A DNA stretch of 64,000 nt from positions 1 to 64,000 of the forward strand of contig VXTP01000022.1 of the NCBI GenBank assembly GCA_009837395.1. The letters run 5' to 3'. Below the pieces are notes generated by a model. That model searched no databases. It was given only the letters and a program-made list of their open reading frames with translations, and was not told where the DNA came from. Source of the DNA: Gemmatimonadota bacterium (GTDB lineage: Bacteria; JAAXHH01). A program made the translations under genes and the position numbers. Within the stretch, counting starts at the first letter, position 1. Each line of letters begins with the position of its first letter. Below, one piece after another: positions 13,044 to 53,984 of the stretch.

Positions 13044-13117
13044 ACTTGTGTCTCATTTTTACAATTTTAACACACCACGCGTTGTATCTTTAGTCATGAA
13101 AGTGATCTGACATCGAC

Positions 13118-13172
13118 GAATCCGCCATCCGCGCGGTGGGTGACCAGGCGAATCCGTCACCCGCGCGGTGGC
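13118..13172. repeat. imperfect 23-bp direct repeat, 2 copies
   Basis: gaatccgccatccgcgcggtggg / gaatccgtcacccgcgcggtggc. Confidence 0.85.
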
Positions 13173-13192
13173 TTACCGTAAGGAGATTTATC

Positions 13193-13618: not shown

Positions 13619-13941
13619 AGCGCGTACCATTGGGTTTGATCGCCGGCGCGGTGCTCGGTTTGCTGGACGGGCTGTCCGCCTTCCTGATTCCCGAAGCGCA
13701 GGGCATGATGACCGAAATCATCGTGTGGGGAACGGCGAAGGGCCTGGTCACGGGTCTGCTGGTCGGCATGATCGCGTGCAGGATCGAGGGGGTCGGCAAG
13801 AACGTGCTGGCCGGCGGCGCGGTGGGTGCGGTCCTTTCGCTGCTCGCGGCGGCCTCCACCGGCTCCTACGTCGAGATCGTGCCCACGGGGATCGTCATCG
13901 GGTTGCTGGCGGGCCTTGTCGTATCGAAATGGGGAAAGTGA
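13615..13941 (+). CDS. small hydrophobic membrane protein
   Basis: 108 aa, several hydrophobic helices; ATGA overlap with the preceding VOC gene. Confidence 0.7.
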   Translation: MKRVPLGLIAGAVLGLLDGLSAFLIPEAQGMMTEIIVWGTAKGLVTGLLVGMIACRIEGVGKNVLAGGAVGAVLSLLAAASTGSYVEIVPTGIVIGLLAGLVVSKWGK

Positions 13942-13965
13942 TCCCGGGAAACGGTTGAGGATACA

Positions 13966-15777: not shown

Positions 15778-15827
15778 GCTGCGTATTCTCGGGTTCGGAT
15801 CGGCCGCTCGCGGCCTGCGGGTTCGGT

Positions 15828-17051
15828 TCAGCCACCCGCCTCAGTGACGCGTCGAAGCGCGTCCTGGTTGACGAGATCAGGGTAGACAAATCTCCGGGCG
15901 TACTCGACCGCTGTGACATCCCTCCACGTGTATTCTCCGCCCTCCGGCGTCGGTTTGCGAAGGGACGCGCGCACCGCCGGGTCGGCGCCGTGTTCCAGAA
16001 GCAGATCGGCCATGTCCGTAAAGTTGCGTGGTACATGCAGAGAGGCCATGGCATGGAACAGCGGCGTCCAGCCCCCGTACCCCTCGTGATCGGTTCCAGC
16101 GGGCGCATTGACGTCGGCGCCTTGTTCAATCAGCCACCCGGCCATTTCCATGTCGCAGAACTCGACGGCCATGTGTAGCAGCGTTACGCCGCCGGTCAGG
16201 GGGGTCGCAAATGCGTACGGCGTGGGATGCTTGATCCCGAAGTCCGGCGGGAAGATCTCTTCCACGCTGAACGGTCTCGTGAGCAGGTGAGGGTCGCCGA
16301 CCAGGTGCCGCGCAAGACGGTCACTGTACCGGAGATGCAGGGCCATGGGCGGCGTGTCCGGTAACTCAACACCCGCTTCCGCCATGACGCGAAGGCAATC
16401 GGCCTTATTCCCGGGGTTTCGCTCGTTGGTCGCCAGGATCATGCCTGCGTTTTCCGGCAGCAGCCTGCCGCCCTTCGACGAGAGGTGGCGCAACATCCCC
16501 GACGCCAGCGTCATGCAGGGATAGTCGATTACCCGGTATGGTCGGCCGGACGGCGATACCGTCGTCGCATTCGGATCGGCGCCGTGGCGGAGAAGCAATT
16601 CCACGGCGTCCAGGTTCCGATCGAAGCACGCCGCGGCCCGCAACGCCTTTTCCTCCCCTTCGTGTACATCCGCTCCGGCATCGATCAAGGTCTTCATGAC
16701 CCCGGTCCTGCCGAAAAAGGCGGCATAGGCCAGGGGCCGGTAACCGTTGTGCCGGCGCCGCTTGACCCAGTGCCCTTCCCGGTGTATCAGTCCGGGATCG
16801 TCCCGCAGCAACCGCCTCACGCGATCGGCATCGTCCGCCTGGATCGCCCGTTCGAGTGCCCCGATGGTGCCGATCGATCCGACGTAGGCCTCGAGTTTTG
16901 GCCAATCGGGAAACCCGTACCGCGCGGCGATCCGTTGCCGTGCATCGGGCAGCGATGGGCAGGAACCTTCCTCGAGCAGGTCTTCAGCCTCCGCTTCCAG
17001 GTTTTCAAAATCGGGGTAGTCGGGTAGTTGTACAATGGCGGTGTCGGCCAT
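15828..17051 (-). CDS. ankyrin-repeat protein with N-terminal YPDF/GFPDWP module
   Basis: MADTAIVQLPDYPDFENLEAEAEDLLEE...IAARYGFPDWPKLEAYVG; TLLHMAVEFCDMEMAGWLIEQGADVNAPAG. Confidence 0.88.
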   Translation of the reverse strand: MADTAIVQLPDYPDFENLEAEAEDLLEEGSCPSLPDARQRIAARYGFPDWPKLEAYVGSIGTIGALERAIQADDADRVRRLLRDDPGLIHREGHWVKRRRHNGYRPLAYAAFFGRTGVMKTLIDAGADVHEGEEKALRAAACFDRNLDAVELLLRHGADPNATTVSPSGRPYRVIDYPCMTLASGMLRHLSSKGGRLLPENAGMILATNERNPGNKADCLRVMAEAGVELPDTPPMALHLRYSDRLARHLVGDPHLLTRPFSVEEIFPPDFGIKHPTPYAFATPLTGGVTLLHMAVEFCDMEMAGWLIEQGADVNAPAGTDHEGYGGWTPLFHAMASLHVPRNFTDMADLLLEHGADPAVRASLRKPTPEGGEYTWRDVTAVEYARRFVYPDLVNQDALRRVTEAGG

Positions 17052-17219
17052 GTTTCTCACCATCCTTGCGATCGTGCTTCCATTCCGACTTCAATCGGAC
17101 TAATGTCTATACAGCGGATTGTTCATCTTCCGGATACCTGCGCGGTAATGTCCCGAAATTGTTCGGTACTGTGCGGTACATAATGTAATACGATACCTCC
17201 GCCGAAGACAGGGGGCGTA

Positions 17220-18089
17220 ATGGGTTTGGATTTCTCGTTTCTACCTGATTTGCCCCAGGTGGAAACGCTCAAGCGAGTCGCACCTGAAATCTGGTCCAAC
17301 GAAGAGGTGCGGGCCTTTTGGATCGAAGGCAGCTTCGGTCAGGGGACCGCGGACCGGTACAGCGACGTTGATCTTCGATTGGCGGTTCCCGCCGCGCGAT
17401 TCCGGAAATGGGAAACTCCCGATTTTACGGCGCTTTTTAAGGGCCTGTGTATCGCGCACCAACGGCTTTTTCCGCAAGAAGAAGCGATCTTGCATCACGT
17501 TCTGCTCGAAACCGGCGAAATGTACGACCTCGGCATCCAGCAGATCGATCGGCTTGCCCTGCATGGCACCAGCCGCCTGCTTGGTTGCCGGGACCCCGCG
17601 CTGGCCGGGAGTTTCACGGAACCGGTCACAGTATCGGCCGCTGTATCGCCCGGATCGCTGGGCACGGATCCGGATCCCGGTACTGTTGGCCAGTTGATCG
17701 TCGATTTCTGGATTAACTCCAACAAACATCGCAAGGTGCTGTACCGCGGGCTCGATCCCATGGTCGTCGTGGGACTGCAGACCGAGCGCGCGATTCTGAT
17801 CAGGCTCTGGGCGATACACGCGTCCGGACGGGATACAGGCACGGGGACACCGACTATTCATACGCTGACGCCCCAGGTCCGGTCGATCGGGAAAACCGGG
17901 AGAAACGCGCTGGAAGTCCTCGGAGCGCCGGTGAGAAACCGCAGCGAGTTGAAGGCGCTGATCGAACGGCATCGGGATGAGGTCGCCCGCGTCGGGCGTG
18001 TGCTGGCTGAGCGGTATGCCTTCGCCTATCCCGAAGTCGTGGAAGAGACGGTCCGAGCCGGCTGGGACGAGTTTCTTTCCACGGTTTGA
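17220..18089 (+). CDS. nucleotidyltransferase-domain protein
   Basis: RAFWIEGSFGQGTADRYSDVDLRLAV matches the GS...DxD motif of pol-beta-like nucleotidyltransferases. Confidence 0.8.
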   Translation: MGLDFSFLPDLPQVETLKRVAPEIWSNEEVRAFWIEGSFGQGTADRYSDVDLRLAVPAARFRKWETPDFTALFKGLCIAHQRLFPQEEAILHHVLLETGEMYDLGIQQIDRLALHGTSRLLGCRDPALAGSFTEPVTVSAAVSPGSLGTDPDPGTVGQLIVDFWINSNKHRKVLYRGLDPMVVVGLQTERAILIRLWAIHASGRDTGTGTPTIHTLTPQVRSIGKTGRNALEVLGAPVRNRSELKALIERHRDEVARVGRVLAERYAFAYPEVVEETVRAGWDEFLSTV

Positions 18090-18100
18090 AGACCCGGCCG

Positions 18101-19798
18101 TTACGCCTCCTCAGTCCCCCACTCCCCAATCAATTCGATGATTTCATCTTCTCCTTTCTCCGCGGCAATCGAAAGCGGCCGGGTCCACGGCCAGTCCGCC
18201 AGACCAGGATCGGCGCCATGTTCCAGCAACAGGCAGACCATGCCGGTCTGGCCGTGCTCGACCGCGACGGCCAGGGGCGTGAGGCCTTCCTTCTCATCCA
18301 GCACGTTCACCAACGCGCCCCGTTCGATCAGGGACCTTGCGGTGGATGCCCAGCCATACCGGGCGCAGACGTGCAGGTAGGTCTGACCTTCGAAGGTACG
18401 GCGGTTCGGATCCAAGCCCGCTGCGACCAGATTGGTTGTGATCGCGGCGTTGTCGCCCCAGCCCGGCAGGTATTGAAGGTCTTCCAGGCGTCCAGGCGCA
18501 TCGGGATCGACGGCCAGCAGAGATTCGATCAACCGCTCGTCCTCCGAACCGATCACTTCAGCGGCCACGTAAGGATCCCGGACCCGCTGCGACTTGCTGT
18601 CCACCAGGTTCCGGAGCGTTTCCTGGTCCAGGCTCCAGGACGGCGGGTACACCGCGCCGTGACGTATGAGCAGGTCTCTAATCGCTTGATCGTCCGTGCC
18701 CGCGGCGCATCCGCAGGAGTCCAGTTCCACGTTGGGATTGGCGCCGTGATACAGTAGCAGAGCGGCCAGATCCGCCTGCTTGTGCCACACCGCCACGAAT
18801 AGCGCTTCGTCTACGAGGTGTCCCTCGGTGCCCGCTTCGAGCAGCAGCCGAACGATGGGTTCATGTCCTGCGCGTACCGCATAGGACAGGGGGGACCTCA
18901 GGGCGGCATCGCGGTGCTTTTCGGCGGGTTGCGCTTCGAGGATCGACGCGGCCCTTTCGAAGTCGCCCAGGTGACAGGCCGCCGTAATGGCATAATGCGC
19001 ACCCTTCCCCAACAGGTACTCCGTGAGACCGAGTTTCGGATCGGGCGGATCGAGTCCGACTCCGGCATCGAAGGACAGGGTCAGTGGGGTCTTGCCGTCC
19101 GCACGCCGGGTATCGACGGGCAGGCCGAGAGACAGAAAGAGCTCGATCACGTCTTTCCGGCCGGTCAGCACGCCCAGGTGTAGCCCGTTGTTTCCGTCTT
19201 CGTCCGCCCGTCCGGCCAATTCGGGCCGGTCGCGCAATACCGATGCAACACGCTCGAATGCAACGCCCTCGAAACCGCCTGCCTTTATGAGATCGGCGAT
19301 CTCCCTGAACGCGGGATCGTAGCCGAACCGGGCGTTCATCGCGTTTTCGAGAACTGCCGCTACGTCGTCAAAGCCGCGCTTCCGGGCGCCTTCGAGCAGG
19401 CTCCCCCAGGTCGAATTGAATATGTTGAGCCCGGGATCGGCGCCCCTATCGAGCAGCAATTGCACGGCATCGACATGGCCGTGGCGCGTGGCCATGTGCA
19501 CCGGCTGGGTGTACCAGTGCAAGGCGTTCACCATGCGCGGATCCTCGTCGAGAAGTTTCGCGATGGCCGTCAGATCTCCGGCAGCGCCTGCCTTGAACAG
19601 GGACCAGGCGGCTTCGCCGTCGATCCAGTCGGTCTCGTCGCCCCAACGGTCGTCGTAGTAGGACCGTCCGTAATCGGGGCCCAGGCCCGGACAGATCATG
19701 AATCCGGTCCGGCAGGCGTCCAGGTGCACCCGTCCACGGAACTTCCCGGGAAACGCCATGCGCGCGGCGCGGTCGGGGTACTTTCCGCTGATTTCCAC
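18101..19798 (-). CDS. ankyrin-repeat protein
   Basis: 565 aa; TQPVHMATRHGHVDAVQLLLDRGADPGLN, LTPLAVAVEHGQTGMVCLLLEHGADPGLAD. Confidence 0.88.
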   Translation of the reverse strand: MEISGKYPDRAARMAFPGKFRGRVHLDACRTGFMICPGLGPDYGRSYYDDRWGDETDWIDGEAAWSLFKAGAAGDLTAIAKLLDEDPRMVNALHWYTQPVHMATRHGHVDAVQLLLDRGADPGLNIFNSTWGSLLEGARKRGFDDVAAVLENAMNARFGYDPAFREIADLIKAGGFEGVAFERVASVLRDRPELAGRADEDGNNGLHLGVLTGRKDVIELFLSLGLPVDTRRADGKTPLTLSFDAGVGLDPPDPKLGLTEYLLGKGAHYAITAACHLGDFERAASILEAQPAEKHRDAALRSPLSYAVRAGHEPIVRLLLEAGTEGHLVDEALFVAVWHKQADLAALLLYHGANPNVELDSCGCAAGTDDQAIRDLLIRHGAVYPPSWSLDQETLRNLVDSKSQRVRDPYVAAEVIGSEDERLIESLLAVDPDAPGRLEDLQYLPGWGDNAAITTNLVAAGLDPNRRTFEGQTYLHVCARYGWASTARSLIERGALVNVLDEKEGLTPLAVAVEHGQTGMVCLLLEHGADPGLADWPWTRPLSIAAEKGEDEIIELIGEWGTEEA

Positions 19799-19894
19799 CG
19801 TGTTGCTCCGATCCGTTGACTGATCGACTCCGATCCGTTGGCTGATCGACGACGATCAGCTACCCGATCGACGCAGACTGGCCTAACCTCGTTT

Positions 19895-20776
19895 TCAACC
19901 GGTGTGAGCACCAAGTTCTACCAGCGCCTGGAACGCCGTCCGGCCCATCGCGGAAGCGGCACAGTCCAGCGGCGTTCTGCCTTCGTGGTCCCGCGCGTCC
20001 GTGTCGGCGCCGGCTTCGATCAAGGCACGAACCGTATCGGATCCCGTTCCTCTCGCGCAGACCAGGTGCAGTGCGGTACGGCCTTCACCATCCTGGAGAT
20101 TGGGATCGGCCCCGAGTTCCAGGAGCAGACGGACCCGCTTGCCATGGCCGTGATTGGCGTCGTGGTGCAGGAGGGTGCGGCCGCCCACCTGTTCGTTGAT
20201 GTCCCAACCGTGCCCGACCAGCAGCTCAAGCTTCTCGGCCATCGATGCGCTCGGTGTATGCTTGAGTCCGCCCAGGTTCGGTTCCGCGCCGTTTTCCAGC
20301 AGGAATCGCGCGCCTTCCACGGTGCCGAATCGCAGTTGCATCATGAGCGGTGTTTCCCCGGCGCACCCCACAGTGGTCAGGATGTTCACGTCTGCCCCGC
20401 CGTCCAGCAGCAGCCTTCCGACGGGGACGGACCGCCAGTGATGTATCGCCCGGGCGATCCCCCGCCCTCCGGTAAATTCGGCATGTACGAGTTCGGGATC
20501 TTCCGACAGCCCGGTCCGGACCGCTTCGATACGGTCCGCCATCACAGCATCCCTGCAGTCACGCACCCGTTCGGGAATCAGCAGGTCCGCGATCGCCCGA
20601 TGGGCCGGCTTATAGCAGTGGCCGCAGTTCCGGCTGACGAACTCCCGCAGCAGAGGATGCGCCGCGATCCCGTCGTAGCCTGCGAGCTGGGGACGGCCAT
20701 CGATAAAGGCGCGTGCGGCTTCCAGATCCCCCCGTTCGAACATCGCAAGGAGGGCTTCGTCAGATCCGGATTCCAT
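19895..20776 (-). CDS. ankyrin-repeat protein
   Basis: 293 aa; RTLLHHDANHGHGKRVRLLLELGADPNLQDGEGRTALHLV. Confidence 0.88.
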   Translation of the reverse strand: MESGSDEALLAMFERGDLEAARAFIDGRPQLAGYDGIAAHPLLREFVSRNCGHCYKPAHRAIADLLIPERVRDCRDAVMADRIEAVRTGLSEDPELVHAEFTGGRGIARAIHHWRSVPVGRLLLDGGADVNILTTVGCAGETPLMMQLRFGTVEGARFLLENGAEPNLGGLKHTPSASMAEKLELLVGHGWDINEQVGGRTLLHHDANHGHGKRVRLLLELGADPNLQDGEGRTALHLVCARGTGSDTVRALIEAGADTDARDHEGRTPLDCAASAMGRTAFQALVELGAHTG

Positions 20777-31434: not shown

Positions 31435-31588
31435 CGACCGCTCCCATAATATCGACAAAACATGGTTAGTGCCGCCGGGCTGCACTGTCAATACAAACCT
31501 CGATATGCCCCGGCAGTGAGGAGGGTCGGCTGAAATCTTTTTTATTTGTAACGTCGACCGTTCTAACTGACACTAATACTATAGCGTA

Positions 31589-32107
31589 GTGATCACTATG
31601 GCGGAACCTCTGGCCAGGATAACGCCGGAATACTGTATCGACATCGTACGGGAGTACCCCTTTCCGGTCGCCCGTGTGTGGGCAGCCGTTACGACGGCGG
31701 AGGGGATCTCGGCCTGGATGAAGTACGAAGCCACGTTGGACCGCCGTCTGGGTGGCAGGATCTTCGTGGACTTCAAGTCGGAAGGCAACCTGGAAGGCAC
31801 GGTCTGCGAATGGGTCCCGGAACGAGTGTTTGCATACACCTGGGGGCTATCCGTGGTCCGGTGGGTGCTCGAGCCCGGTGAGGGCGGCACGCGACTGCAT
31901 TTCACGAATTCCCACGTCACCCCGGATATCCTGATGGGATTCGCCGCCGGCTGGCACGCCTTCATCGACCACCTTGGGCCTTATCTGGCCGGGACCACCG
32001 TGGAAGACCGGTATGACGATCTCATGGAGGTCTATGCGGATCGATACAGCCACCTGGTCGCGGACAACGTTGCGGACAACGACGACACCGAGGAGAAGCA
32101 GACATGA
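31589..32107 (+). CDS. SRPBCC (AHSA1-like) domain protein
   Basis: YPFPVARVWAAVTTAEGISAWMKYEATLDRRLGGRIFVDF; the stop overlaps the next ORF's start. The start may be 31598. Confidence 0.85.
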   Translation: MITMAEPLARITPEYCIDIVREYPFPVARVWAAVTTAEGISAWMKYEATLDRRLGGRIFVDFKSEGNLEGTVCEWVPERVFAYTWGLSVVRWVLEPGEGGTRLHFTNSHVTPDILMGFAAGWHAFIDHLGPYLAGTTVEDRYDDLMEVYADRYSHLVADNVADNDDTEEKQT

Positions 32108-33813
32108 CGAACGAGACAACCTCCGGCGCCTTCACCGTGGCCGAACTGTGTGAAGCGTCGGCCGATGGAGATTTGAAGCGCATCCATTCCATTCTGGCCG
32201 TAGCGCCCCACCTGGTGGGTGTGGACATGGCGTCCTACGACGAGCACCGCGCCCTGCACCACGCGGTGATGAACCGCCGGATCGACGCGGTTTCCGCCCT
32301 CATGGCCGCGGGGGCCGACCCGCACCAGGGCGTCTATCCCCACCGGGACGCATCCACGCCCCTGGTCATGGCCCGCGACCGTGGATTTGAAGACGTCATT
32401 GAAACGATCAACGAGGAAATGGAACGGCGGCGGGAAGCGAATCTCTGCCCGAATCTTACCGTTGCACCGGAGGTGGTGCTCCTCGCTGAGAAAGTCGCCG
32501 ATGGCGACGTGGCCGGCGCGATGCGGGAAATCCACGCCGCGCCCGAACTCGCGGAGGCCTGCGACGAAGACGGGAATACGGTCCTGCACCACGCGGCCAT
32601 CCACGGTCATCCCGGACTCGTTCAGGCGCTGCTTTCACTCAAGGCCGACACGGGAAAGACCAACCTCGAAGGCCGAACCCCCCTCGAACTGGCCGTAGAT
32701 CAAACGGCCGCAACGGACCGGCGGCAGTCGGAAGGCTGTTTCATGGCCGCCGGCATCCTCATGAGCGCGGGTGCCCCAAGAAGCCTGCGTACGAACGTGA
32801 TGCTGGGGGACGAGGAAGCCGTGCGACAGGTCGCGGCGAGCCACCCCGGTCTGTTCGAACCGGATGTGGATACCGAAACCCACTTGCTGGGGGACGCCGT
32901 CCGCCACAATCGGTACGAGATGGTGAAGCTGCTGCTCGATCTCGGCATGGATCCCAACCAGCGTTACCGCATCCAGTCCCTGGAGGAAGAGACGTACAAC
33001 TGGGGCGAACCGCTGTGGATCGCGGCAGGCGACGGCCAGCACGACATCGCGCGGTTGCTGCTGGAACGGGGCGCCGACGCCAACGCCGCCGTGTACGCCT
33101 CCGGCAATCCCATGAGCCGCGCCTACAATAACAGGGACGAGCGGATGAAACGGCTGCTTTACCGGTACGGAGGATCGATGACGCCGGACGGCGCGGCCCT
33201 GGAATGCGATACCTCCGCGGCAGTCATGGCGCTGAACCTGCAGCCCGACCTCGTGGAGCAGATCCTGTGGGGCGCCGCCTGCGGGGGCGATCCCAGCGTC
33301 GTCGGCGTGTGCCTGCGCAAGCTGGACTGGGCGCTGGACGATCCACGGTGGTACAGGCTCCTCATCCAGCCCATCGGCATCTGGCCCTGCGGTCCACATC
33401 GCAAGTACCGGGATTTCGATCGTTCCGTATTCCCGGAGATCCTCCGCATGTTCCTGGATCATGGGGTGGACCCGAACGTGAAGGGCCGGCGCGACACATC
33501 ACTTCCGCATTATATCGCCGCTACCGGGAAGGTCTGGGGTCAGCCGAATCTGAAAGAGGACGAACGGATCGAGTTCGCGCGCCTGCTCCTTGTATACGGC
33601 GCCTCGCTTGAAGGCAGGGATACGCTGCTTCATTCCACGCCCCTGGCCTGGGCGGCCCGCTGGGGCCGGGACGCACTGGTCAACCTCTATCTCGAGCACG
33701 GCGCCGATCCGCAGCCCGAAGGGGAATCCTGGACCACGCCGCTCGCCTGGGCCGAACGGTATAGGCATGCCGCCATCGCGGACCGTCTGAGGGAGGCCGG
33801 CGCCGTTTCCTAA
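32104..33813 (+). CDS. ankyrin-repeat protein
   Basis: 569 aa; NTVLHHAAIHGHPGLVQALLSLKADTGKTNLEGRTPLELAV; ATGA start/stop overlap with the SRPBCC gene. Confidence 0.9.
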   Translation: MTNETTSGAFTVAELCEASADGDLKRIHSILAVAPHLVGVDMASYDEHRALHHAVMNRRIDAVSALMAAGADPHQGVYPHRDASTPLVMARDRGFEDVIETINEEMERRREANLCPNLTVAPEVVLLAEKVADGDVAGAMREIHAAPELAEACDEDGNTVLHHAAIHGHPGLVQALLSLKADTGKTNLEGRTPLELAVDQTAATDRRQSEGCFMAAGILMSAGAPRSLRTNVMLGDEEAVRQVAASHPGLFEPDVDTETHLLGDAVRHNRYEMVKLLLDLGMDPNQRYRIQSLEEETYNWGEPLWIAAGDGQHDIARLLLERGADANAAVYASGNPMSRAYNNRDERMKRLLYRYGGSMTPDGAALECDTSAAVMALNLQPDLVEQILWGAACGGDPSVVGVCLRKLDWALDDPRWYRLLIQPIGIWPCGPHRKYRDFDRSVFPEILRMFLDHGVDPNVKGRRDTSLPHYIAATGKVWGQPNLKEDERIEFARLLLVYGASLEGRDTLLHSTPLAWAARWGRDALVNLYLEHGADPQPEGESWTTPLAWAERYRHAAIADRLREAGAVS

Positions 33814-33825
33814 AACGACTGTTGC

Positions 33826-34998
33826 TCACCCGTCTCGGGGGGCTGGTGGCCTGTCCCGGTCAGGATGCCAGCGGGTGGCGGCGACATGGGTGGTTTCATC
33901 TTCCGTCGTGATGTAATAGACGGTCAGGATGGTACCGTCATCCAATTCCGCCGAGATCGGATAGCCCACGTCCGCGCCGCCCATCCGGGGTCGCTTCTCC
34001 GGCGGCCACGCACTCGAAACACCCCCGCCGTCATCCCTGAGCACGTATTCGTGGTCCGTGTCCCACGTCCGTCCGCCGTCCTCGCTGATCAAGGCCCGAA
34101 TGCCCATCGGGGCGCGGCGGTAGCCGTAGGTACACAGAACGCGTCCGTCATGGAGTTTGAGCAGGTGGTTCGGATAGCCCTCGAACGACGTCTCAACCGG
34201 GCGGGTCCAGGTCTTGCCGCCGTCTTCGGACCAGACTTCCAGGGTGTAGAACCGGTCCCTGTGAAAGGTACGCTCAACGGTAGCCGGATCCCAATAACAC
34301 GTCGAGCGAATATGGCCCAGGATACGGTTCGGCTCCGTCTCCACCAGGGCCCATTCGCTGCCGATACGCGGCACGGCTTCATGGAGATGCCAGGTCTCTC
34401 CGTCGTCGACGGACCGGAACAGGAGGCAGTCGCTCTCGCCCCCGGCGCGCATCGCGTATATGGGCAACAACCACGTACCGTCTTCGAGAATGATACCGCG
34501 TGGAAATCCGACCGTGAATTGATAGCCAGGCACGTTCCAGGTGCGCCGGTCCCAGGTATTCCCCCCATCCTGGGACCTGATCACCGCCAGTCGATACCCC
34601 GTGATGATTAACTTTCCCGGAAAACGGGACGTGTACGTCTCATCCACTACGAACCGCAGGCCGCGAGCCTCGGCTTCTTCCCGGCGGTCCATTGTCCAGA
34701 ATTCATGCCCCACCGAGCCCACCGCCATCAGGGTTCCGTCGGGTAAAACGCCGGAAAGCCGGTCGTAGCGCTCCCGTGGCGATACTCCCGGCCAGTTGGG
34801 CGGTAGCAAGGGATCTTCCGACAGCGTCCAAGTTCGTCCGTCGTCGCGTGACTCAAACGTCAGCCAGCCGGAGAGACCGTAGTGATCCCCGAAAGGCGAA
34901 GAGATGCAGCCGATCGAAAGCCGCCCGTCCGGAAGTTGATTCAATACGGGAAACGCGTTGTAGCGTCCCTTTCCTTTTGTAACAATACAGTGTTGCAT
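33826..34998 (-). CDS. exo-alpha-sialidase-like BNR-repeat protein
   Basis: Asp-box-like repeats (SRDDGRTWTL, SQDGGNTWDRR, SVDDGETWHL, SEDGGKTWTRP, SEDGGRTWDT). Confidence 0.88.
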   Translation of the reverse strand: MQHCIVTKGKGRYNAFPVLNQLPDGRLSIGCISSPFGDHYGLSGWLTFESRDDGRTWTLSEDPLLPPNWPGVSPRERYDRLSGVLPDGTLMAVGSVGHEFWTMDRREEAEARGLRFVVDETYTSRFPGKLIITGYRLAVIRSQDGGNTWDRRTWNVPGYQFTVGFPRGIILEDGTWLLPIYAMRAGGESDCLLFRSVDDGETWHLHEAVPRIGSEWALVETEPNRILGHIRSTCYWDPATVERTFHRDRFYTLEVWSEDGGKTWTRPVETSFEGYPNHLLKLHDGRVLCTYGYRRAPMGIRALISEDGGRTWDTDHEYVLRDDGGGVSSAWPPEKRPRMGGADVGYPISAELDDGTILTVYYITTEDETTHVAATRWHPDRDRPPAPRDG

Positions 34999-35114
34999 GG
35001 TAATTCCTGGAGGTACCTGGTAATCCTTAGTGTTGCCTGGATGCTGCGGGAAATGCGCACGAAGCGAGGATGATTTACTGGCGTAAGGTCCGTTGTGTCA
35101 ATAAAATTACGTCC

Positions 35115-35810
35115 ATGGACCGCATTCCCATTCCCCACAGTCTCTCCATAACGCTGGACCGTATCAACGAACGGCACTTCCTCGGCGAATCGTTCGACCG
35201 GATCGAAGCGGAACACACCCTGGACTGGCTGGCCGGTCGTTTCGGCGCGGATTCCGCCTATGCCGGGACATTCGGCGTTACCGAACAGGACAGCCGATCC
35301 AAACTCTATACCTTCACGGGTGAGCGGCTTCAATCGGCGTCGCTGCGGCATATCCACGCCGAGGAAACCTGCCGGGCTATCATCCTGCTGAACCGCCGTG
35401 TCGGGCGCGACCGGCTTCCCGAACTCGAGGCGGCAACGTCCGAACTGCTCGGGTGTTTCGAGGCGGCGCACGCGAAGGGCAAACCGCGGGGTACGTTCTG
35501 CTGCGGTCCGTGCACCGTCTCGCTCTGGCGGCACATGGCCATTGGCGGTCTTGGTGACTACGCCCGTCACCTGGACGAAGGAATCGGCGTATTGGCGAGC
35601 CACGAAGACGGGGCGGGGACGTGGCGCCGGTTCCCCTTCTACTACACTTTGCTTGCCCTGTCCGAGGTAGACACGCCGAATGCCCGGCGCGCTGTGTCGT
35701 ACGCCTTTCCGGAATGCGAACGCCGCCTGAATACCATTAGGCGAAACACCCCGTTTGGCGTTCGAAGATACGGGTTGTTGTCCCGGATCCTTGAGAAAAA
35801 CGCTGCTTAA
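35115..35810 (+). CDS. hypothetical protein with CCGPC motif
   Basis: MDRIPIPHSLSITLDRINERHFLGESFDRIEAEHTLDWL...GTFCCGPCTVSLWRHMAIGGL. Confidence 0.7.
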   Translation: MDRIPIPHSLSITLDRINERHFLGESFDRIEAEHTLDWLAGRFGADSAYAGTFGVTEQDSRSKLYTFTGERLQSASLRHIHAEETCRAIILLNRRVGRDRLPELEAATSELLGCFEAAHAKGKPRGTFCCGPCTVSLWRHMAIGGLGDYARHLDEGIGVLASHEDGAGTWRRFPFYYTLLALSEVDTPNARRAVSYAFPECERRLNTIRRNTPFGVRRYGLLSRILEKNAA

Positions 35811-35998
35811 ATGGAATTTGGATGATGGGCTTGACGCGAAACGGACCAGGCGTTAGTTTGATGTCCGTTGCGCACCGGGGCGTATCCATTCCGCGGAAAA
35901 GGCCGAGCCTACCCGATCCATTTCGTAACTTAAGAATACGCGAATCTCTTTCTTCTCCGAAAATGCGGAATCGGAGTGCCATGGAAAGGAATTCGCCG

Positions 35999-37204
35999 AT
36001 GAAAGACCCTCGCACGCTTCCTCAGCATCCCGATCTGGATCAGCTCAAAACCCAGGCGCGGGAACTCCTCAAAGCATATCGCTCGGGTGATACCAAGGCG
36101 GCCCAGTCGTTCGCCGCGCATCCTCGCACGATTGATCCCACTGCGGTGAAACTCGCCGACGCTCAACTGGTTCTGGCCCGGGAATACGGGTTTTCGAGTT
36201 GGCCTGTCCTTCGCCGGGAAGTGTGCCGTCGCCGGTTGCGTGCCGCCATCTGGAGTGGTGACGCGGCGTCCGTCGAAGCCGTCCTGGAACTGGACAAGAA
36301 TATAGTCAACGATGCCGTGAACCACCCGCGCTGGGGAGGGCGCCCCGTGCCAATTCAAATTGCGGCGGAACGCGGGGACACGAAGGTCATCGAAATCCTG
36401 TTGCGCAACGGGGCGGATCCGAACGGCGGCACCGATTCCTACGGAGGCTGGACCGCCCTTCACCTCGCGGCTCACTGGGGACACAACGATGCGGCCGAAA
36501 CGTTGCGGTCACACGGAGCGAACGTGGATCTGCACGCCGCGTGCCTGCTGGATGATGTCAACGCCGTTCGGTCGTTATTGGCGGAAGATTCCGGCGCGGC
36601 ATCCCGTCCGGGTCTGGGTGGAGAACCGCCACTCCACGTGGTTGTGTCCGCGGAAACGGCCGGGCTCCTGCTGGATCACGGAGCGCCGCTGGATACGGTC
36701 GACGGCGATGGCAACACGCCGCTGGGCGCGGCGCTGTCCCGCGGCGAACGCTGTCGCCAGCTGGCGGAGTACCTGATCGACCGGGGCGCGCCGGTGGATC
36801 CCTGCCAGCTCGCCGTTCTCGGAAGGACAGACCAGCTCAGCCGGCTTTGCCGGACCGATGCAGGCGCGGTGGCCTACGAAGGGAAGATCGGGGTTCACGC
36901 GGTGGTGGGAACGCCCCTGCACGCCGCGGTGCAGCATAGACAGGAGGAAACGGTTCGGATGCTGCTGGGTTGCGGCGCGGATGCGAACGCTCGGGCGGAC
37001 TCCGGGCAGACGCCCCTGCATCTGTGCGGGGACGCCGGGATCGCGAAGATGCTCGTCGATGCCGGCGCCAACCCGGGTGCGACAGACGATGAACACGGCA
37101 CGACGCCGCTCGTATGGGCGGAAGTGGGGATTGAAATCCACGGCACGACGCCGAAGCGCGAGGCCCTGGTCTCGTATTTGAAGGATATCACGCCGGCACG
37201 GTAG
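35999..37204 (+). CDS. ankyrin-repeat protein with N-terminal HPDL/GFSSWP module
   Basis: LPQHPDLDQLKTQARELLKAYRSGD...LADAQLVLAREYGFSSWPVLRREV, then ankyrin repeats (GWTALHLAAHWGHNDAAETLRSHGANVD). Confidence 0.88.
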   Translation: MKDPRTLPQHPDLDQLKTQARELLKAYRSGDTKAAQSFAAHPRTIDPTAVKLADAQLVLAREYGFSSWPVLRREVCRRRLRAAIWSGDAASVEAVLELDKNIVNDAVNHPRWGGRPVPIQIAAERGDTKVIEILLRNGADPNGGTDSYGGWTALHLAAHWGHNDAAETLRSHGANVDLHAACLLDDVNAVRSLLAEDSGAASRPGLGGEPPLHVVVSAETAGLLLDHGAPLDTVDGDGNTPLGAALSRGERCRQLAEYLIDRGAPVDPCQLAVLGRTDQLSRLCRTDAGAVAYEGKIGVHAVVGTPLHAAVQHRQEETVRMLLGCGADANARADSGQTPLHLCGDAGIAKMLVDAGANPGATDDEHGTTPLVWAEVGIEIHGTTPKREALVSYLKDITPAR

Positions 37205-38756
37205 GACTGGCGGCTTCGAACATGGAGACGATGCGTTCCTTGTCGGAGCGCTTCATCCGGCGGGCGATCCCCAGGGGCGTTTTGCCCAGTCTGTCTTCAA
37301 GGGTCGGGTCCGCGCCGCGGACCAACAGCAGGGCCGCCGACTTCACCACGTCCGCCCGGGGACCCGCCTTCAGTGCGTAAAACAGGGGGGTCTCGCCCTT
37401 TTCACTTCGCCCGTCGACCGGGGCGCCGTTGTCCAGCAGCACCTCCATCACCCCGGTGAATCCGGCCTTGGCGGCAAAGTGCAGTGCGCCGGCGCCGCGC
37501 AGTACCGTGTCGATCCGGGCCCCCTTGTCCAGCAGGGCCTGCACGTACCGGGGATCGTCCCGCTGGCTGTTGTTTCCCGTGCAGGCCGTCCAGATCCAGT
37601 TTCCATCGGGATAGTTGACGTCGGCGCCGCGGGCAATCAGCAGGGCCGATTCTTCTTCGTCGAGTACCCATCTGCCACATCCGATCCGGGTGGCGTCCGC
37701 GCCCTGCTCCAACACCACCCGAAGCAGATCGGTTTGCCGTCGACCGGCGGCGTAACGGACCAGGGCCGTGCTGTTTACGCCGACTTTGGCGCCCTGGTCG
37801 AACAGCATCCTCGCGACCTCTTCGTGTCCGCCGTACACCGCATGATGTAGCGGTGTAACGGGCAGCAGGTCGCAGGCGGGATCCTGCGCGTCGACCAGTC
37901 CGGGTGCTGCATCCAGAAGTTCGGATACCCGGTCCAGGTCACCCAGAAAACAGGCGCTGAAGATATCATACACGGCACCCCGCTCCAGCAGGAACGCGGC
38001 CGTCTCGTCCTTCTTCTTGCTCAGCGCGGCACAGTGGGCGGTCATCATGATGTCGCTCGAATGGGCCGACGGAAGGTTTACGTCCACTCCCCGGTCGAGC
38101 AGCAGGGCCGCTACCCGAGTGTGGCCCCGCAACACCGCTTCCGCGAGGATGATCGCGCCGTGACGGGGATCGTCCAGCACCGCAGGATCCTCGTCCAGGC
38201 AGCGCTCGAGGGCTTCCGCCTGTCCCCTGGCCGCCAACCTGGCGGGCGTTCTCCATCGCTTTTCCCGGTGACACCTCATCTCCCAGCCGTGCCGGGCGGG
38301 TTTTTGCTCGTTGACGAGGCCGTGGGCAAGGGGCCGAAGCACGTACAGCACTTCGGCAACGAGCGTTTCGTCGTTGATGTGATTCCGCAGCGAAGCGGTC
38401 ATGTGGGACAGCCACCGGTCGGCGGATGCCCGGGTGATGTGAATGTGCTCGTGCCGGTTTTTTATTCCGCCGTAGGCGTGGTGCCGCGTATAGCCCGGTT
38501 CGCCGCCCATCCACTCCTCCATGAACGCCTTCTGCTTCATGCGTTCTGGAGCCAGCGTACGGGTGAACATGGGCCGTAGCTCGGCGTCCTTTTCGATCCG
38601 ATCATACAGGCCGTCTATGATGCCCGCGACCACGGATCGGCCGCCGATCCGTTCGAACAGGGTGGGATCCGGCCGCAACACGGTGGCGAGCCCGCCACGG
38701 TGGGCCAGCAGAGCCTGGATACGGGACGAATCGCCGGATGCTGGTGTTGCCGGCAT
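37188..38756 (-). CDS. truncated hemoglobin-ankyrin fusion protein
   Basis: N-terminus FERIGGRSVVAGIIDGLYDRIEKDAELRPMFTR...FMEEWMGGEPGYTRHHAYGGIKNRHEHIHITRASADRWLSHM resembles a truncated globin. C-terminus has ankyrin repeats (TPLHHAVYGGHEEVARMLFDQGAKVGVN). Confidence 0.85.
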   Translation of the reverse strand: MPATPASGDSSRIQALLAHRGGLATVLRPDPTLFERIGGRSVVAGIIDGLYDRIEKDAELRPMFTRTLAPERMKQKAFMEEWMGGEPGYTRHHAYGGIKNRHEHIHITRASADRWLSHMTASLRNHINDETLVAEVLYVLRPLAHGLVNEQKPARHGWEMRCHREKRWRTPARLAARGQAEALERCLDEDPAVLDDPRHGAIILAEAVLRGHTRVAALLLDRGVDVNLPSAHSSDIMMTAHCAALSKKKDETAAFLLERGAVYDIFSACFLGDLDRVSELLDAAPGLVDAQDPACDLLPVTPLHHAVYGGHEEVARMLFDQGAKVGVNSTALVRYAAGRRQTDLLRVVLEQGADATRIGCGRWVLDEEESALLIARGADVNYPDGNWIWTACTGNNSQRDDPRYVQALLDKGARIDTVLRGAGALHFAAKAGFTGVMEVLLDNGAPVDGRSEKGETPLFYALKAGPRADVVKSAALLLVRGADPTLEDRLGKTPLGIARRMKRSDKERIVSMFEAASPTVPA

Positions 38757-39020
38757 TGCACCATCCTCGGGCCATGGAGTCAGACGATACAGATCCGGAG
38801 ATTCCCGCAAGATCGGAATGCGGGACCTGGGACCTGGTACCTGGTGCAAAGTAGCCGCCGGCGGGCGTTGTTATCAAGGGGTTTCATCGCCTTGCCGCCC
38901 GTAATTGTGCGTTGACGCCGCCGCGGGCGCGTGTTATATAGAAACGGGCGCATCCACGGACCGGTCGCGGTTTTGCGGTATGCGCTTTATCCTTTTGGAT
39001 GCCTTTCCGGGGATCCCCCG

Positions 39021-45508: not shown

Positions 45509-46102
45509 GTGCAACGGTATAAATCGGTCGAAGACTACCTGGATGGCCACGTGGAATGGCGCTCCCTGCTGGAAAGACTACGCAACATCATGAACGCATG
45601 CGAGGTCGAAGAAACCGTCAAGTGGGGTCAGCCTTGCTACACCCACGCAGGCAAGAACGTGGCGGGGATCGGAGCGTTCAAGGAGTTCGTGAGCGTCTGG
45701 TTCTTCCAGGGCGCGTTGCTGCGCGACGAACAGGGCGTCCTGGTCAATGCGCAGGAAGGCAAGACCAGGGCCATGCGTCAATGGCGGTTTCAGGCGGTCG
45801 AAGAGATCGAAGAACCACTGCTGCGCGCCTACGTGGCCGAGTCCATCGAAAACCAGCGGCAGGGCAAAGCGATCAAGGCGGAGACGAAAAAGCCGTTGGA
45901 GGTTCCGGATGAACTGGCCGTCGCGCTGGCGGAAGACGGTGTTGCCGGTAAGCAATTCAACGCGCTGACGCCGGGCAAGCAGCGCGAGTATACCGAGTAT
46001 ATCGCCGAGGCCAAACGGGCTGGAACCAGGACCAGGCGCCTGGAGAAGATCCTGCCCATGATCCGGACCAGCCAGGGACTCAATGACAGGTACAAGAAGT
46101 AG
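45509..46102 (+). CDS. YdeI/OmpD-associated (DUF1801-like) protein
   Basis: VEETVKWGQPCYTHAGKNVAGIGAFKEFVSVWFFQGALL...LTPGKQREYTEYIAEAKRAGTRTRRLEKILPMI; GTG start. Confidence 0.82.
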   Translation: MQRYKSVEDYLDGHVEWRSLLERLRNIMNACEVEETVKWGQPCYTHAGKNVAGIGAFKEFVSVWFFQGALLRDEQGVLVNAQEGKTRAMRQWRFQAVEEIEEPLLRAYVAESIENQRQGKAIKAETKKPLEVPDELAVALAEDGVAGKQFNALTPGKQREYTEYIAEAKRAGTRTRRLEKILPMIRTSQGLNDRYKK

Positions 46103-46160
46103 CTTGAACCACTAAGTCGCACGAACCGCAACAAACACCACAACCAGAGAGGAGCGCGCA

Positions 46161-46514
46161 ATGTCGAACCCCGTCATGCATTTCGAGATCGGATGCAAGA
46201 ACAGAGAAGAGACCCAGGCTTTCTACGCCGGCTTGTTCGGGTGGGACATGGAGTCCCATGAACACGCCTCCATGATCGACACCGGGGGAGACGAAGGGAT
46301 CAACGGGCATATTTCCGCCCTCGGTCACGAGCCGCACAACTACACGCTGGTCTATGTGCAGGTCGACGACCTGGACGCCTACGTCGCGAAGGCCGAGGAA
46401 CTGGGCGGCGCGTCCATCGTACCCCCAACCGAAGTCCCGGGCATGGGCCACTTCGCGTGGATTGCGGACAATGAGGGTACGTTCGTCGGATTGTGGAAAC
46501 CCCTGGAATCGTAA
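46161..46514 (+). CDS. VOC family protein
   Basis: VMHFEIGCKNREETQAFYAGLFGWDMES...MGHFAWIADNEGTFVGLW. Confidence 0.9.
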   Translation: MSNPVMHFEIGCKNREETQAFYAGLFGWDMESHEHASMIDTGGDEGINGHISALGHEPHNYTLVYVQVDDLDAYVAKAEELGGASIVPPTEVPGMGHFAWIADNEGTFVGLWKPLES

Positions 46515-47519: not shown

Positions 47520-47900
47520 TCAGTCCGAGCAGTCCGGATCCTGGGCGATGTGCCAGAGCACGCCGGCCGGATCGATCAGATTGATCTCGCGTAGTCCCCA
47601 GGGGTAGACTCTGGGCGCCGCGGCGCGGACGCCGTCGTACCGCGCTACGAGGTCCTTTTCCACGATGTGCTCCCACCAGGCGTCCAGGTCCGCCACTTTC
47701 AGATGCATCATGAAGTTGTCCGCCCACTCCTTCTGATAGTAATTCTGGAGGTAGAAGCTGAATCCCTCGATGCGCATCTCACTTACTCCGTGCCCCGTCC
47801 AGACGGTTTCAAACCCAAGGTCCTCGTAGAACCGGATCGAAACGTCGTGGTCTTTCGACGGGACGAAGACCCGGAGCGCGTTCACTTTCAGGTCATGCAT
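47520..47900 (-). CDS. VOC family protein
   Basis: NALRVFVPSKDHDVSIRFYEDLGFETVW...LREINLIDPAGVLWHIAQ. Confidence 0.88.
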   Translation of the reverse strand: MHDLKVNALRVFVPSKDHDVSIRFYEDLGFETVWTGHGVSEMRIEGFSFYLQNYYQKEWADNFMMHLKVADLDAWWEHIVEKDLVARYDGVRAAAPRVYPWGLREINLIDPAGVLWHIAQDPDCSD

Positions 47901-48043
47901 GGAGGGTCCTTCCTCTTGCGCGGAAATTCAAACGACATGGTAACACCTGACCCCTATGAATGACACTATGTTAATGGGGAATGGACGGAAGGCGCAAGGC
48001 GCAGGTTGGGGCAAGTAGCCGACTACCGCCATGATGGGCCGAT

Positions 48044-50290
48044 ATGACCAACGACCTCAAACAACACATTCGGGTTTCAGCCGACCGGTCTTTACCTCAT
48101 GCGGATCGAAGTACCGCATTCGGAGAGGTGGTGGCCAACTACCAGGACATGGCCTTCGGCTACGCGCTGGGACTTCTGGGTGAACGGCACCTGGCGGAAG
48201 ATGCCGCGCAGGAAGGATTCATCGCCGCCTGGCAGCAGATCGAATCGCTTCGCAAGCCGGATTCGTTTCCGGCCTGGCTGAGGCGGATCATAAAGTGGCA
48301 GTGTTTCCGGTTCAAGAGACGAAACAACCACCATTTCGTACCCATGGAGGACGACATCGAGGCGGCAGATGAAAGTCCCCTGGACCGGGCGGCGCGCAGG
48401 GACATGAGCGAGAAAGTCCGCGCCGCGGTGGAAGCATTGCCGGAAACACTGAGAGAAGTCACGGTACTTCGGTATATTGGAGACTATTCAGCGCCTGAAA
48501 TCGCACACTTCATGGGATTGAAAGCGGGAACGGTGCGCAAAAGGCTGTTCGAAGCGCGGAGCAAGTTGAAGCCGAGTCTGCTTCGCACTTTGTCAAGTGA
48601 ACTGAACGGTCACGCACCGTCTGCAAATGGTATCTTCGGAGACCGCATTATGCATTGGATACGACCCGATTTCACGAGCGAGCAAGGCCATTTCATGGAT
48701 GGCAGGCCGAACAAGGTCTGGGACATGCTGCTGGCCGCGGTGGAAGGGGATCTTGCCAGGATCAGGTCGCTGTTGCGGGAGGATCCCGGTCTGGCCAACT
48801 GCAACTGGGCGTACTATCAGCCCCTGCACTTCGCCGTCCGGGAAGGGCACACAGAGGCGGTCCGCCTGTTGCTCGAACACGGCGCGGACCCCTCGTCGGC
48901 ATCGGGACTGGATTATCACGTGCCGCCGCTCGAACGGGCCAGGGACCGCGGATACGACGAGATCGCCGGACTCCTGACGGACGCCATCGCGTCCAGGTAC
49001 AGCGCGCAGCCCGTGGGCGAACGTGCCTGCGAAGTGGTCCGGCGCGGCAACCTTGAAGAAGCCCGGGCGTTGTTCGAGGCTTCCCGCGAGTTGATAAACG
49101 CCTCGGACGAACGGGGCAACCGTCCCCTCCACGAGGCCGTGGCAGAACACAACCTGGAAATGACGGCCCTGCTGCTGGACATGGGGGCCGAACCGGATCC
49201 GGTCCGGTGGGATGGATGCAAACCGCTGCACGTGGCCGTGTTTCGCGCGCGAAAGTCCAGGGGAGGCCTGGATCCGCTGCTGACCGGATACCTGATCGCG
49301 AGAGGAGCGAACTACAGCATGACGGTCGCGTGCGCCCTGGGGGACGAACGGCGCGTGCGGAATCTCCTCGCCCGGGACCGAAACCTGGCCAACGACCAGG
49401 ATTCCTGCGGGCACTCCCCGCTGTTCAGCGCGGCGGGCCAGGGATACACCGACATCGTGCAGCTTCTGCTGGACCACGGCGCCGATCCCAACGCACCGGA
49501 ACACAACGCGCCCCGGGGACACGCGCTGTACGAAGCCGTGGCCGGCAATCACCTGGATACGGCGAAATTGCTGCTCAATCACGGCGCCGATCCCAACGCC
49601 CCGGTGGAATCCAGCGGCGTGCCCCTCTCACAGGCCCTGGGCCAGGGGAAGAACGAGGAGATGATCAACTTGCTGTACCGGCACGGGGCGACGGCCGACA
49701 TCAGCATGTACGTGCTGCTGGACGACATACCCGTGGTCGGCGAGCTCCTCGGCGCGGACCCCGACCTGGCCAATTATGGAGGCGATTACGGGGTACTCTG
49801 CATGGCGGCGGGCTTCGCGCGCAGAGAGATCATCGAAATGTTGATCCGGGCGGGGGCGGAACTGAACCGGCCCTGGTACGCCAACAACTACATGGGGTAC
49901 GCGTTCCGCCGGCGCAAGGGCTGGCACCTGGACGGACGCGCCTTGACCCCCAACGACGATATTCTCGACATGCTGAACCTGTTTTTCGACCATGGCGCCG
50001 ATCCAAACAACGCGAACTGGCACGGCGTCACCTACCTGCACAAACTGGCGGCGATCGGCGACGTGGCTAAATCCGCCCTGCTGCTCGACCGGGGCGCTTC
50101 CATCGAAGCCGTGGACGACGAGTGGCGCTCCACCCCGCTGGGATGGGCCGCGCGCTGGGGACACCGGGACCTTGCGGTGTTCCTGCTGGAGCGGGGCGCG
50201 GATCCCCGGGGCGGCGGCGCGGAATGGGCGACCCCGCTGGCGCGGGCGGAGAAGGCCGGGCACCCGGATATCGTCGAACTGTTGAAATAA
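48044..50290 (+). CDS. ECF-type sigma factor-ankyrin repeat fusion protein
   Basis: sigma2-like YQDMAFGYALGLLGERHLAEDAAQEGFIAAWQQIESL...FPAWLRRIIKWQCFRFKR; sigma4-like LPETLREVTVLRYIGDYSAPEIAHFMGLKAGTVRKRLFEARSKLK. About 550 aa of ankyrin repeats follow with no intervening stop. Confidence 0.9.
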   Translation: MTNDLKQHIRVSADRSLPHADRSTAFGEVVANYQDMAFGYALGLLGERHLAEDAAQEGFIAAWQQIESLRKPDSFPAWLRRIIKWQCFRFKRRNNHHFVPMEDDIEAADESPLDRAARRDMSEKVRAAVEALPETLREVTVLRYIGDYSAPEIAHFMGLKAGTVRKRLFEARSKLKPSLLRTLSSELNGHAPSANGIFGDRIMHWIRPDFTSEQGHFMDGRPNKVWDMLLAAVEGDLARIRSLLREDPGLANCNWAYYQPLHFAVREGHTEAVRLLLEHGADPSSASGLDYHVPPLERARDRGYDEIAGLLTDAIASRYSAQPVGERACEVVRRGNLEEARALFEASRELINASDERGNRPLHEAVAEHNLEMTALLLDMGAEPDPVRWDGCKPLHVAVFRARKSRGGLDPLLTGYLIARGANYSMTVACALGDERRVRNLLARDRNLANDQDSCGHSPLFSAAGQGYTDIVQLLLDHGADPNAPEHNAPRGHALYEAVAGNHLDTAKLLLNHGADPNAPVESSGVPLSQALGQGKNEEMINLLYRHGATADISMYVLLDDIPVVGELLGADPDLANYGGDYGVLCMAAGFARREIIEMLIRAGAELNRPWYANNYMGYAFRRRKGWHLDGRALTPNDDILDMLNLFFDHGADPNNANWHGVTYLHKLAAIGDVAKSALLLDRGASIEAVDDEWRSTPLGWAARWGHRDLAVFLLERGADPRGGGAEWATPLARAEKAGHPDIVELLK

Positions 50291-52714: not shown

Positions 52715-53007
52715 AATCGCTCCTGTTCCTTGTCTGCATTCCACCTGGATTCCTGGCTTTTGACGCCTGCAATCCGACTGAATACCAGGTCCCGGTATAT
52801 GGTATGATAATGTAGGCGTGGGCCCGGTATGTGTCAACATCTCGCCCACCGGTTCGGTTAGCCGGTATCAGCCAAAATCTGTGGCGTCATACCCGGGCCA
52901 TTCGTAAATTTACCTGGGTTAAGGAACAGCATCCTATCCAACACGTGGACTTAAGTGCTCGCACGTACAAGGTATCACAAAATGATTCGGATCCATGGAG
53001 GAAGAAA

Positions 53008-53412
53008 ATGCGAATCGAAATGACGGGCGTGTTCGTGAACGATCCCATCGAGGCGCACGAGTTCTACACGAAGATCCTGGGCTTCAAGGAGATCATGTTC
53101 GTGCCCGAGGCCAGTCTCGCCATCGTAGCTTCTCCCGAGGAACCCGATGGCACGACCCTCCTGCTGGAACCGAAGGGTACCGAGTGGTCCCAGGTTTACC
53201 ACAAGGAACTCTATGAATCGGGGATGCCATCCATCGTGTTTTCCGTGGACGATATCGCTTCCGAATACGAACGGTTGAAGAAGCTGGGTGTCCGGTTCAG
53301 CGTGGACCCGACGAAACAGGACTTCGGCATCCAGGCCATTATCGACGATTCCTGCGGAAACTATATTGCGCTCGTGGAACTGAATGAAGGCGCGTGGCAG
53401 ACCACACCCTGA
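53008..53412 (+). CDS. VOC family protein
   Basis: MRIEMTGVFVNDPIEAHEFYTKILGFKEIMFVPEASLAIVASPEEPDGTTLLLEP. Confidence 0.9.
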   Translation: MRIEMTGVFVNDPIEAHEFYTKILGFKEIMFVPEASLAIVASPEEPDGTTLLLEPKGTEWSQVYHKELYESGMPSIVFSVDDIASEYERLKKLGVRFSVDPTKQDFGIQAIIDDSCGNYIALVELNEGAWQTTP

Positions 53413-53423
53413 AAGGATAAAAC

Positions 53424-53984
53424 ATGAACTGGACCGAAATACTGACTCGTGAACTGAAATACTCCTACCTGGCGGCAGACGGATTGATGGACCTCGTCGA
53501 GGACAAGGATCTCGACTGGAAACCGTCGTCGGGCGACAACTGGATGACGACGGGCCAGCTGCTTTTTCACGTGGGCGAAGCTTGCGGAATGGCGATCAAG
53601 GGATTCGTAACCGGCGACTTCGGTTTGCCCGAAGGCGTCAGCGCGGACGACATGGGATCCGGGGATATGCTGCCCCCGGCCGAAGCGATGGCCACGGTCG
53701 CCTCGGTGGCGGAAGCAAAGGAAAAACTCGCGGCGGACCGGGACCTGGCCTTCGAAATGCTCGAGCTTGCCGGTGAGGAAAGGATGCAGAACGAACCCGC
53801 ACCCGCGCCATGGGACCCTTCCACGCCCGTCCTTGGCCATCGCATGCTTGAGATGGTGCAGCACCTGGTTCAGCACAAGGGGCAGTTGTTCTACTACCTG
53901 AAACTACAGGGCAAGCCGGTCAACACCATGCACCTGTGGGGCGGGGAGCTCGCCGAGGACCGCGATGCGGAACGCGAGGAATAG
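53424..53984 (+). CDS. DinB-superfamily (metal-dependent) protein
   Basis: LMDLVEDKDLDWKPSSGDNWMTTGQLLFHVGEACG..., MLEMVQHLVQHKGQLFYYLKLQGKPVNTMHLWG. Confidence 0.82.
   Translation: MNWTEILTRELKYSYLAADGLMDLVEDKDLDWKPSSGDNWMTTGQLLFHVGEACGMAIKGFVTGDFGLPEGVSADDMGSGDMLPPAEAMATVASVAEAKEKLAADRDLAFEMLELAGEERMQNEPAPAPWDPSTPVLGHRMLEMVQHLVQHKGQLFYYLKLQGKPVNTMHLWGGELAEDRDAEREE

Follow-up and report, generated by a model that had tools for sequence, protein, structure and literature searches.

An ECF sigma factor fused to a long ankyrin-repeat array in a Gemmatimonadota genome: a candidate autoregulated one-protein signalling system

The window analyzed here is a stretch of 64,000 nucleotides from contig VXTP01000022.1 of a Gemmatimonadota bacterium (assembly GCA_009837395.1). 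It contains an uninterrupted open reading frame in which an ECF sigma factor is followed by a long ankyrin-repeat array (Table 1). This architecture had been proposed in the initial annotation, and Pfam agrees with it by placing Sigma70_r2, Sigma70_r4_2 and Ank_2 in one protein. The ankyrin part comprises ~520 residues, compared to the ~550 originally estimated. Pfam detects sigma2 and sigma4 only, and neither sigma1.1 nor sigma3, which is the composition of an ECF (group 4) sigma factor. A phmmer search of solved structures in the PDB with residues 1–200 retrieved ECF sigma factors; SigW is the best match (2.8e-15), and SigE and SigH are also among the top matches.

Table 1. Features of the fusion locus and of the predicted target operon (positions refer to the window).
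Feature	Position	Strand	Details and basis
ECF sigma–ankyrin fusion CDS	48044..50290	+	ATG start, 748 aa, no internal stop
Sigma region 2, ~residues 25–95	48116..48328	+	Pfam Sigma70_r2 30–95, 1.9e-14
Sigma region 4, helix-turn-helix, ~residues 121–180	48404..48583	+	Pfam Sigma70_r4_2 123–175, 9.1e-12
Post-sigma4 helix and P-S linker, residues 181–206	48584..48661	+	Alignment of fusions and other-tailed relatives
Ankyrin-repeat array, residues 222–748	48707..50287	+	Pfam Ank_2, several stretches, 6.6e-48; AlphaFold2; Foldseek
ECF-type promoter-like element, GTAACACC-N14-GACACTA	47940..47968	+	75 nt before the fusion ATG
Second site, GTAACGTCGACCGTTCTAACTGACACTA, 1 mismatch	31548..31575	+	Before the AHSA1 and ankyrin operon
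AHSA1/SRPBCC-family gene, first of the predicted target operon	31589..32107	+	Pfam AHSA1 1e-15
Stand-alone ankyrin paralogue of 569 aa, behind the AHSA1 gene in the predicted target operon	32104..33813	+	Tree and Pfam
Downstream ankyrin gene, 324 aa	50320..51294	+	6 of 10 syntenic congeneric loci have it, 4 lack it

An AlphaFold2 model based on an alignment of 27 fusions has a mean pLDDT of 83.8 and a pTM of 0.71. Paired helices extend all along residues 222–747, and judged from these pairs the array has ~15–16 repeats. Confidence is low solely in the linker between sigma2 and sigma4 (residues 95–110), in the hinge preceding the ankyrin array (208–216) and at residues 625–634. Foldseek matches of the model are ankyrin arrays and DARPins. 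The predicted structure supports two folded parts, not their docking on each other. In the linker behind sigma4, Pro192 is present in all 27 aligned full-length fusions and Ser193 in at least 90% of them. Matches to the T4SS effectors AnkH/AnkY and to PADLOC ankyrin entries reflect generic ankyrin similarity and lie far under the cut-off where one exists.

The fusion is intact in 11 of the 12 congeneric genomes, the window's own included. Ten orthologues align over residues 1–748 with 78–94% identity and contain no stop codons; in the remaining genome the gene is split over contigs and present as two contig-end pieces. Gene order around the fusion is kept in the ten syntenic loci compared. Within the genus, sigma2 has a median dN/dS of 0.14, sigma4 one of 0.08 (the lowest of the protein) and the ankyrin part one of 0.13. 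These low values indicate purifying selection, and thus both halves of the fusion are maintained. The core sigma2 and sigma4 residues are invariant. Within the genus the sigma half is more variable (69–93% identity) than the ankyrin half (81–94%).

Homologues of the fusion were found in all 16 genomes examined of the window's phylum. The window's own genome encodes a second fusion (~40% identical) and at least eight further ECF-like genes. Scores above 208 bits against a full-length profile occur solely in genomes of this phylum, the next being 165–179 bits (384 genomes), and no full fusion was detected at E≤1e-18 in 368 genomes outside the phylum (top two candidates per genome scored). Plasmids yielded nothing but ordinary ECF sigma factors (32–34% identity). 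A scan of GTDB contigs with two peptide patterns, which biases the search towards relatives, gave 80 loci. The sigma and ankyrin parts form one ORF in ~50 of them, hence the homologues are not always two separate genes. The nearest of these relatives come from MAGs labelled Ca. Latescibacterota, Gemmatimonadetes and Poribacteria. One-ORF versions are also present in Chloroflexota, Acidobacteriota, one Verrucomicrobiota MAG and cyanobacteria, including the named strains Scytonema sp. NIES-4073 (L105) and Kouleothrix aurantiaca COM-B (L107). The sigma–ankyrin proteins of two MAGs from the same series (YX3bin19 and YX2bin22, loci L108 and L110) appear identical, and these MAGs are assigned to different phyla (a cyanobacterium and Abditibacterium). 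This is probably binning contamination, so single MAG assignments should not be trusted.

Two genes wrongly joined in one MAG could mimic such a fusion, and the relatives are indeed mostly MAGs. Some of them (L092, L094, L096, L099 and L118) carry apparently separate sigma and ankyrin genes. Inspection of these loci showed frame breaks or stops inside sigma or at the linker at varying positions, as expected of frame errors. The same junction recurs in the ten other congeneric genomes, in distant homologues and in both named strains, and neither the ORF of the window nor the full-length orthologues have a frameshift or stop between the domains. The conserved junction contradicts a joining artefact, which can practically be dismissed.

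The ankyrin gene that directly follows the fusion was pointed out in the initial annotation. It exists, but its inclusion in the system is not supported: four of the ten syntenic loci lack it (L049, L051, L052 and L053), with ~15–50 bases between the fusion and the next conserved gene. A role as obligate partner is therefore rejected. Among the neighbors scanned, the canonical pairing of an ECF sigma factor with an anti-sigma gene is not seen, the next gene being this ankyrin gene where present. No anti-sigma gene is evident among the Pfam-annotated conserved neighbors in the ten congeneric loci (HhH-GPD, glyoxalase, PolB, UvrA-like). Small genes near the fusion (window positions 45509–46514, 47520–47900 and 52831–53984) look like members of the DUF1801, VOC/glyoxalase and DinB families. 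The glyoxalase at 47520 is assigned by Pfam, the DUF1801 and DinB likenesses by eye. We take these genes to resemble the gene neighbors of ECF41 and ECF42.

An AAC-type –35 element before the own gene is common, though not universal, among ECF sigma factors. The element upstream of the fusion and the second site are the sole ones in the window at ≤1 mismatch. The pattern upstream of the fusion orthologues in the genus is GTAACRCC-N13/14-GRYACTA. Each of the 11 congeneric genomes in which the region upstream of the fusion is available has it there (ten exact, one mismatch in G010). A search of 11 congeneric genomes with the exact pattern gave 14 matches versus one for the reversed pattern; ten of these lie upstream of the fusion, the other four upstream of the AHSA1–ankyrin operon. 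The operon carries the element in 12 of 12 congeneric genomes with 0–2 mismatches. The suggestion that ankyrin genes have a shared upstream promoter motif is thus borne out at this one operon and not as a wider regulon: genome-wide matches with two mismatches are fewer in the genus than those of the reversed control, and hence we do not postulate a larger regulon. In two congeneric genomes (G001:C9:19475, L176; G006:C1:471557, L174), one and the same variant of the element, with one mismatch, precedes an ORF that by eye resembles NUDIX genes. This ORF is a possible third target.

Most likely, with a probability of roughly 60%, the fusion is an autoregulated one-protein signalling system in which the ankyrin array acts as a sensor or partner-binding domain. 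The N-terminal ECF sigma domain would bind RNA polymerase and would recognize a GTAAC...TGR..CTA promoter at its own gene and at the AHSA1–ankyrin operon. The ankyrin array may stand in for a separate anti-sigma factor by binding a putative partner, which is most likely a protein; through the P-S linker, binding would turn the sigma factor on or off. Once switched on, the sigma factor would raise its own level, presumably as positive feedback, together with that of the ankyrin paralogue. The role of the ankyrin domain as a sensor is suggested by analogy to the TPR extension of ECF42 and the WD40 extension of ECF57. Ankyrin arrays can also serve as plain scaffolds.

In a tree of the ankyrin parts, stand-alone genes are found at four points among the fusions, and well-supported branches force this arrangement. 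Gene counts in this tree cannot distinguish gain from loss of the sigma part. Two relics fit loss: a linker-like remnant, recognized by eye, precedes the stand-alone ankyrin gene of G331, and in G013 a frame-broken sigma part lies directly upstream of an ankyrin gene close to the paralogue at 32104–33813. The tree and these relics make it probable that this paralogue descends from a sigma–ankyrin fusion. Apart from the predicted target operon, more ankyrin genes are clustered in the window (10408–20776 and 32104–38849), e.g. 18101–19798 with 19895–20776 upstream of it, both on the reverse strand.

The stand-alone ankyrin gene lies inside the fusion clade, its close homologue in G013 follows a broken sigma part and its operon has the promoter element in common with the fusion throughout the genus. 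These observations are consistent with a feedback pair. The paralogue, a former fusion without its sigma part, would compete for the partner or dock on the fusion and thereby turn the response off, as a decoy or surrogate anti-sigma factor. However, the two ankyrin parts are just ~35% identical, the AHSA1 gene is located between promoter and ankyrin gene and may be the real target, and no such operon is apparent in the examined flanks of other fusions. This arrangement is considered unlikely.

The sigma module of the fusion is not restricted to ankyrin proteins. Up to residue ~205 it is common to many phyla at ~40% identity, and the tails differ beyond this point. Polbeta nucleotidyltransferase tails are present in L126, L132, L144 and L146. 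GNAT tails were found in L127 and, under the cut-off, in L139; those of L130, L131, L134 and L141 were assigned by similarity and length. Further tails are a PheS-like core (L136:9974–11272), a Rho RNA-binding domain (L137:8259–9704), ATP-synthase alpha/beta-like (F1-ATPase-like) domains (L148:9947–11539 and L143:9950–12058, in the latter behind ankyrin), GspF (L152:9347–12560, two tandem genes) and a weak TPR match (L153). The partners of the sigma module in L136, L137, L143, L148 and L152 are fragments of proteins of the housekeeping type. In L146 the nucleotidyltransferase is followed by a UvrA part, which may be read-through into a neighbor and was left out of the tails.

The post-sigma4 helix and a P-S...F linker are present in nearly all of these proteins and absent from the other ECF sigma factors of the set. 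We define the P-S-linker ECF family in this analysis by a sigma2/sigma4 module of ~40% identity followed by the post-sigma4 P-S linker, and the protein of the window has both. Two DUF1835-tailed sigma factors (L065 and L066) are close to the family but lack the linker. In a quick tree of 164 columns nearly all P-S-linker sigma factors group together (SH-aLRT 81–88%), which is no more than suggestive of a single clade; the DUF1835-tailed ones fall inside this group. The wider sigma family, with its varied C-terminal domains and common self-promoter, was missed by the initial annotation.

A second kind of tailed ECF sigma factor is encoded in the window's genome (L005:168–2054, contig C22), with a tail of ~440 residues without a Pfam match. 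It is present in most congeneric genomes, some of which have two nearby copies (G001, G004 and G010). In three Poribacteria MAGs, the fusion is directly followed by one or two other ECF-like genes of 440–500 aa (L090:2539 and 4270, L093:12421, L104:12448 and 14080), which are nearly alike among themselves.

An unsupervised two-block search was carried out on 42 upstream regions, chosen so that their sigma modules are <65% identical to each other. It returned the motif ggtAACC-N14-TGGgtCTt (GTAAC…N14…TGG..CTT) with a log-likelihood of 157, versus 54–69 in 11 dinucleotide-shuffled sets (30 restarts for the real set, 12 for shuffled sets). An initial four-fold cross-validation gave just 3 of 42 held-out regions at p<0.01, because family genes were among the controls and, with too few restarts, part of the folds failed to converge. 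After removal of the family genes from the controls and with more restarts, 23 of 42 held-out regions reached p<0.01 and 32 of 42 reached p<0.05 against 926 control upstreams. The regions with p<0.05 span ankyrin, nucleotidyltransferase, GNAT, ATPase-like, PheS-like and GspF tails. The window's own site matches the family consensus less well (held-out p 0.023), since ACTA replaces CTT in this genus. The motif is unconvincing upstream of the paralogue L002 in the same genome (p 0.06).

A scan of 384 genomes with the exact pattern gave six matches, about equal to the reversed control and thus, as a number, no more than expected by chance. One of the six lies ~70 nt before the DUF1835-tailed sigma factor L066, which is absent from the training set, and by eye the same element is present upstream of L065. 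Elsewhere in the 22-kb loci, PWM matches are not above the shuffled background and fall below block-shuffled counts. Accordingly, the case for targets beyond the sigma gene itself comes from one operon in one genus.

The element could also be read by another ECF sigma factor of the genome, the sigma domain of the fusion being vestigial and the protein mainly an ankyrin scaffold. The greater variability of the sigma half, the other ECF-like genes and the probable repeated loss of sigma from the ankyrin family agree with this explanation. On the other hand, sigma4 is the most constrained region of the protein and the core sigma residues do not vary. Furthermore, the upstream motif tracks the P-S-linker sigma family across phyla, a pattern not easily reconciled with reading by another sigma factor. 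A vestigial sigma domain is considered unlikely.

The self-regulation proposed for the fusion may extend to the whole family. One ECF sigma module with one promoter specificity would repeatedly have acquired C-terminal domains unrelated to each other (ankyrin, nucleotidyltransferase, GNAT, F1-ATPase-like, PheS-like, GspF-like, TPR and DUF1835 are counted here). Each protein would be mainly a self-inducing switch on its own gene with an exchangeable sensor. The ankyrin branch would have shed the sigma part several times, leaving stand-alone genes of which at least one is still under the promoter of the sigma factor. The chances for and against this broader scheme appear evenly balanced.

Known ECF sigma factors that carry a C-terminal extension fall into groups, and every group has its own typical extension. 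ECF42 has a TPR extension of ~200 residues and no anti-sigma factor; control by a protein partner has been proposed, and a YCII-type partner gene is described (PMC8999054). Like the fusion, it combines an ECF sigma factor with a C-terminal repeat protein in the absence of an anti-sigma factor, whereas the extension of the fusion is ~520 residues long and is ankyrin by Pfam and predicted structure (TPR_12 has just E 0.36, below the cut-off). A YCII-type gene was not seen among the annotated neighbors of the fusion. Some members of ECF57 have a WD40 extension, and paired cysteines are described (PMC8999054). Both ECF57 and the fusion carry a large C-terminal repeat domain, which is WD40 in the former and ankyrin in the latter; Pfam gave no WD40-like match in the window protein. 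By analogy, the fusion may work like ECF42 and ECF57. In ECF41 and the CorE-type ECF238, a C-terminal extension controls the sigma factor in cis (PMC8999054). These extensions are small SnoaL-like or cysteine-rich domains, in contrast to the ankyrin array, and the SnoaL-like domain of ECF41 and ECF56 had no Pfam match in the window protein.

MzaA of the MZA anti-phage system (NCBIfam NF041931) also appears to join ankyrin-like sequence and sigma-70 in its model. There the ankyrin-like part is N-terminal (profile positions 19–88), the reverse order to the fusion, and profile positions ~224–716 match housekeeping-size sigma factors, not ECF ones, in nearly all genomes. The window protein scores 75.8 bits against this model (cut-off 800), with the best stretch in the ankyrin part. 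For Gemmataceae, fusions of ECF sigma domains with eukaryote-like repeats, WD40 among them, are mentioned (PMC11032199); this is another phylum, and the passage names no ankyrin version. The literature searched yielded no description of an ECF sigma–ankyrin fusion, the numbered ECF groups being compared by name only (PMC8999054). Some numbered groups (ECF237, ECF264 and others) have unstudied extensions, so the P-S-linker family may already bear a group number (PMC8999054).

Compared to groups with one characteristic extension each, the sigma module described here keeps its promoter while the tail is swapped among unrelated domains. The varied tails offer a natural collection in which to study how sigma factors are controlled by their tails, and the common promoter makes promoter prediction possible in uncultured lineages. 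Additionally, the promoter is a ready reporter for what the ankyrin tails respond to, with relatives available in the Scytonema and Kouleothrix strains.
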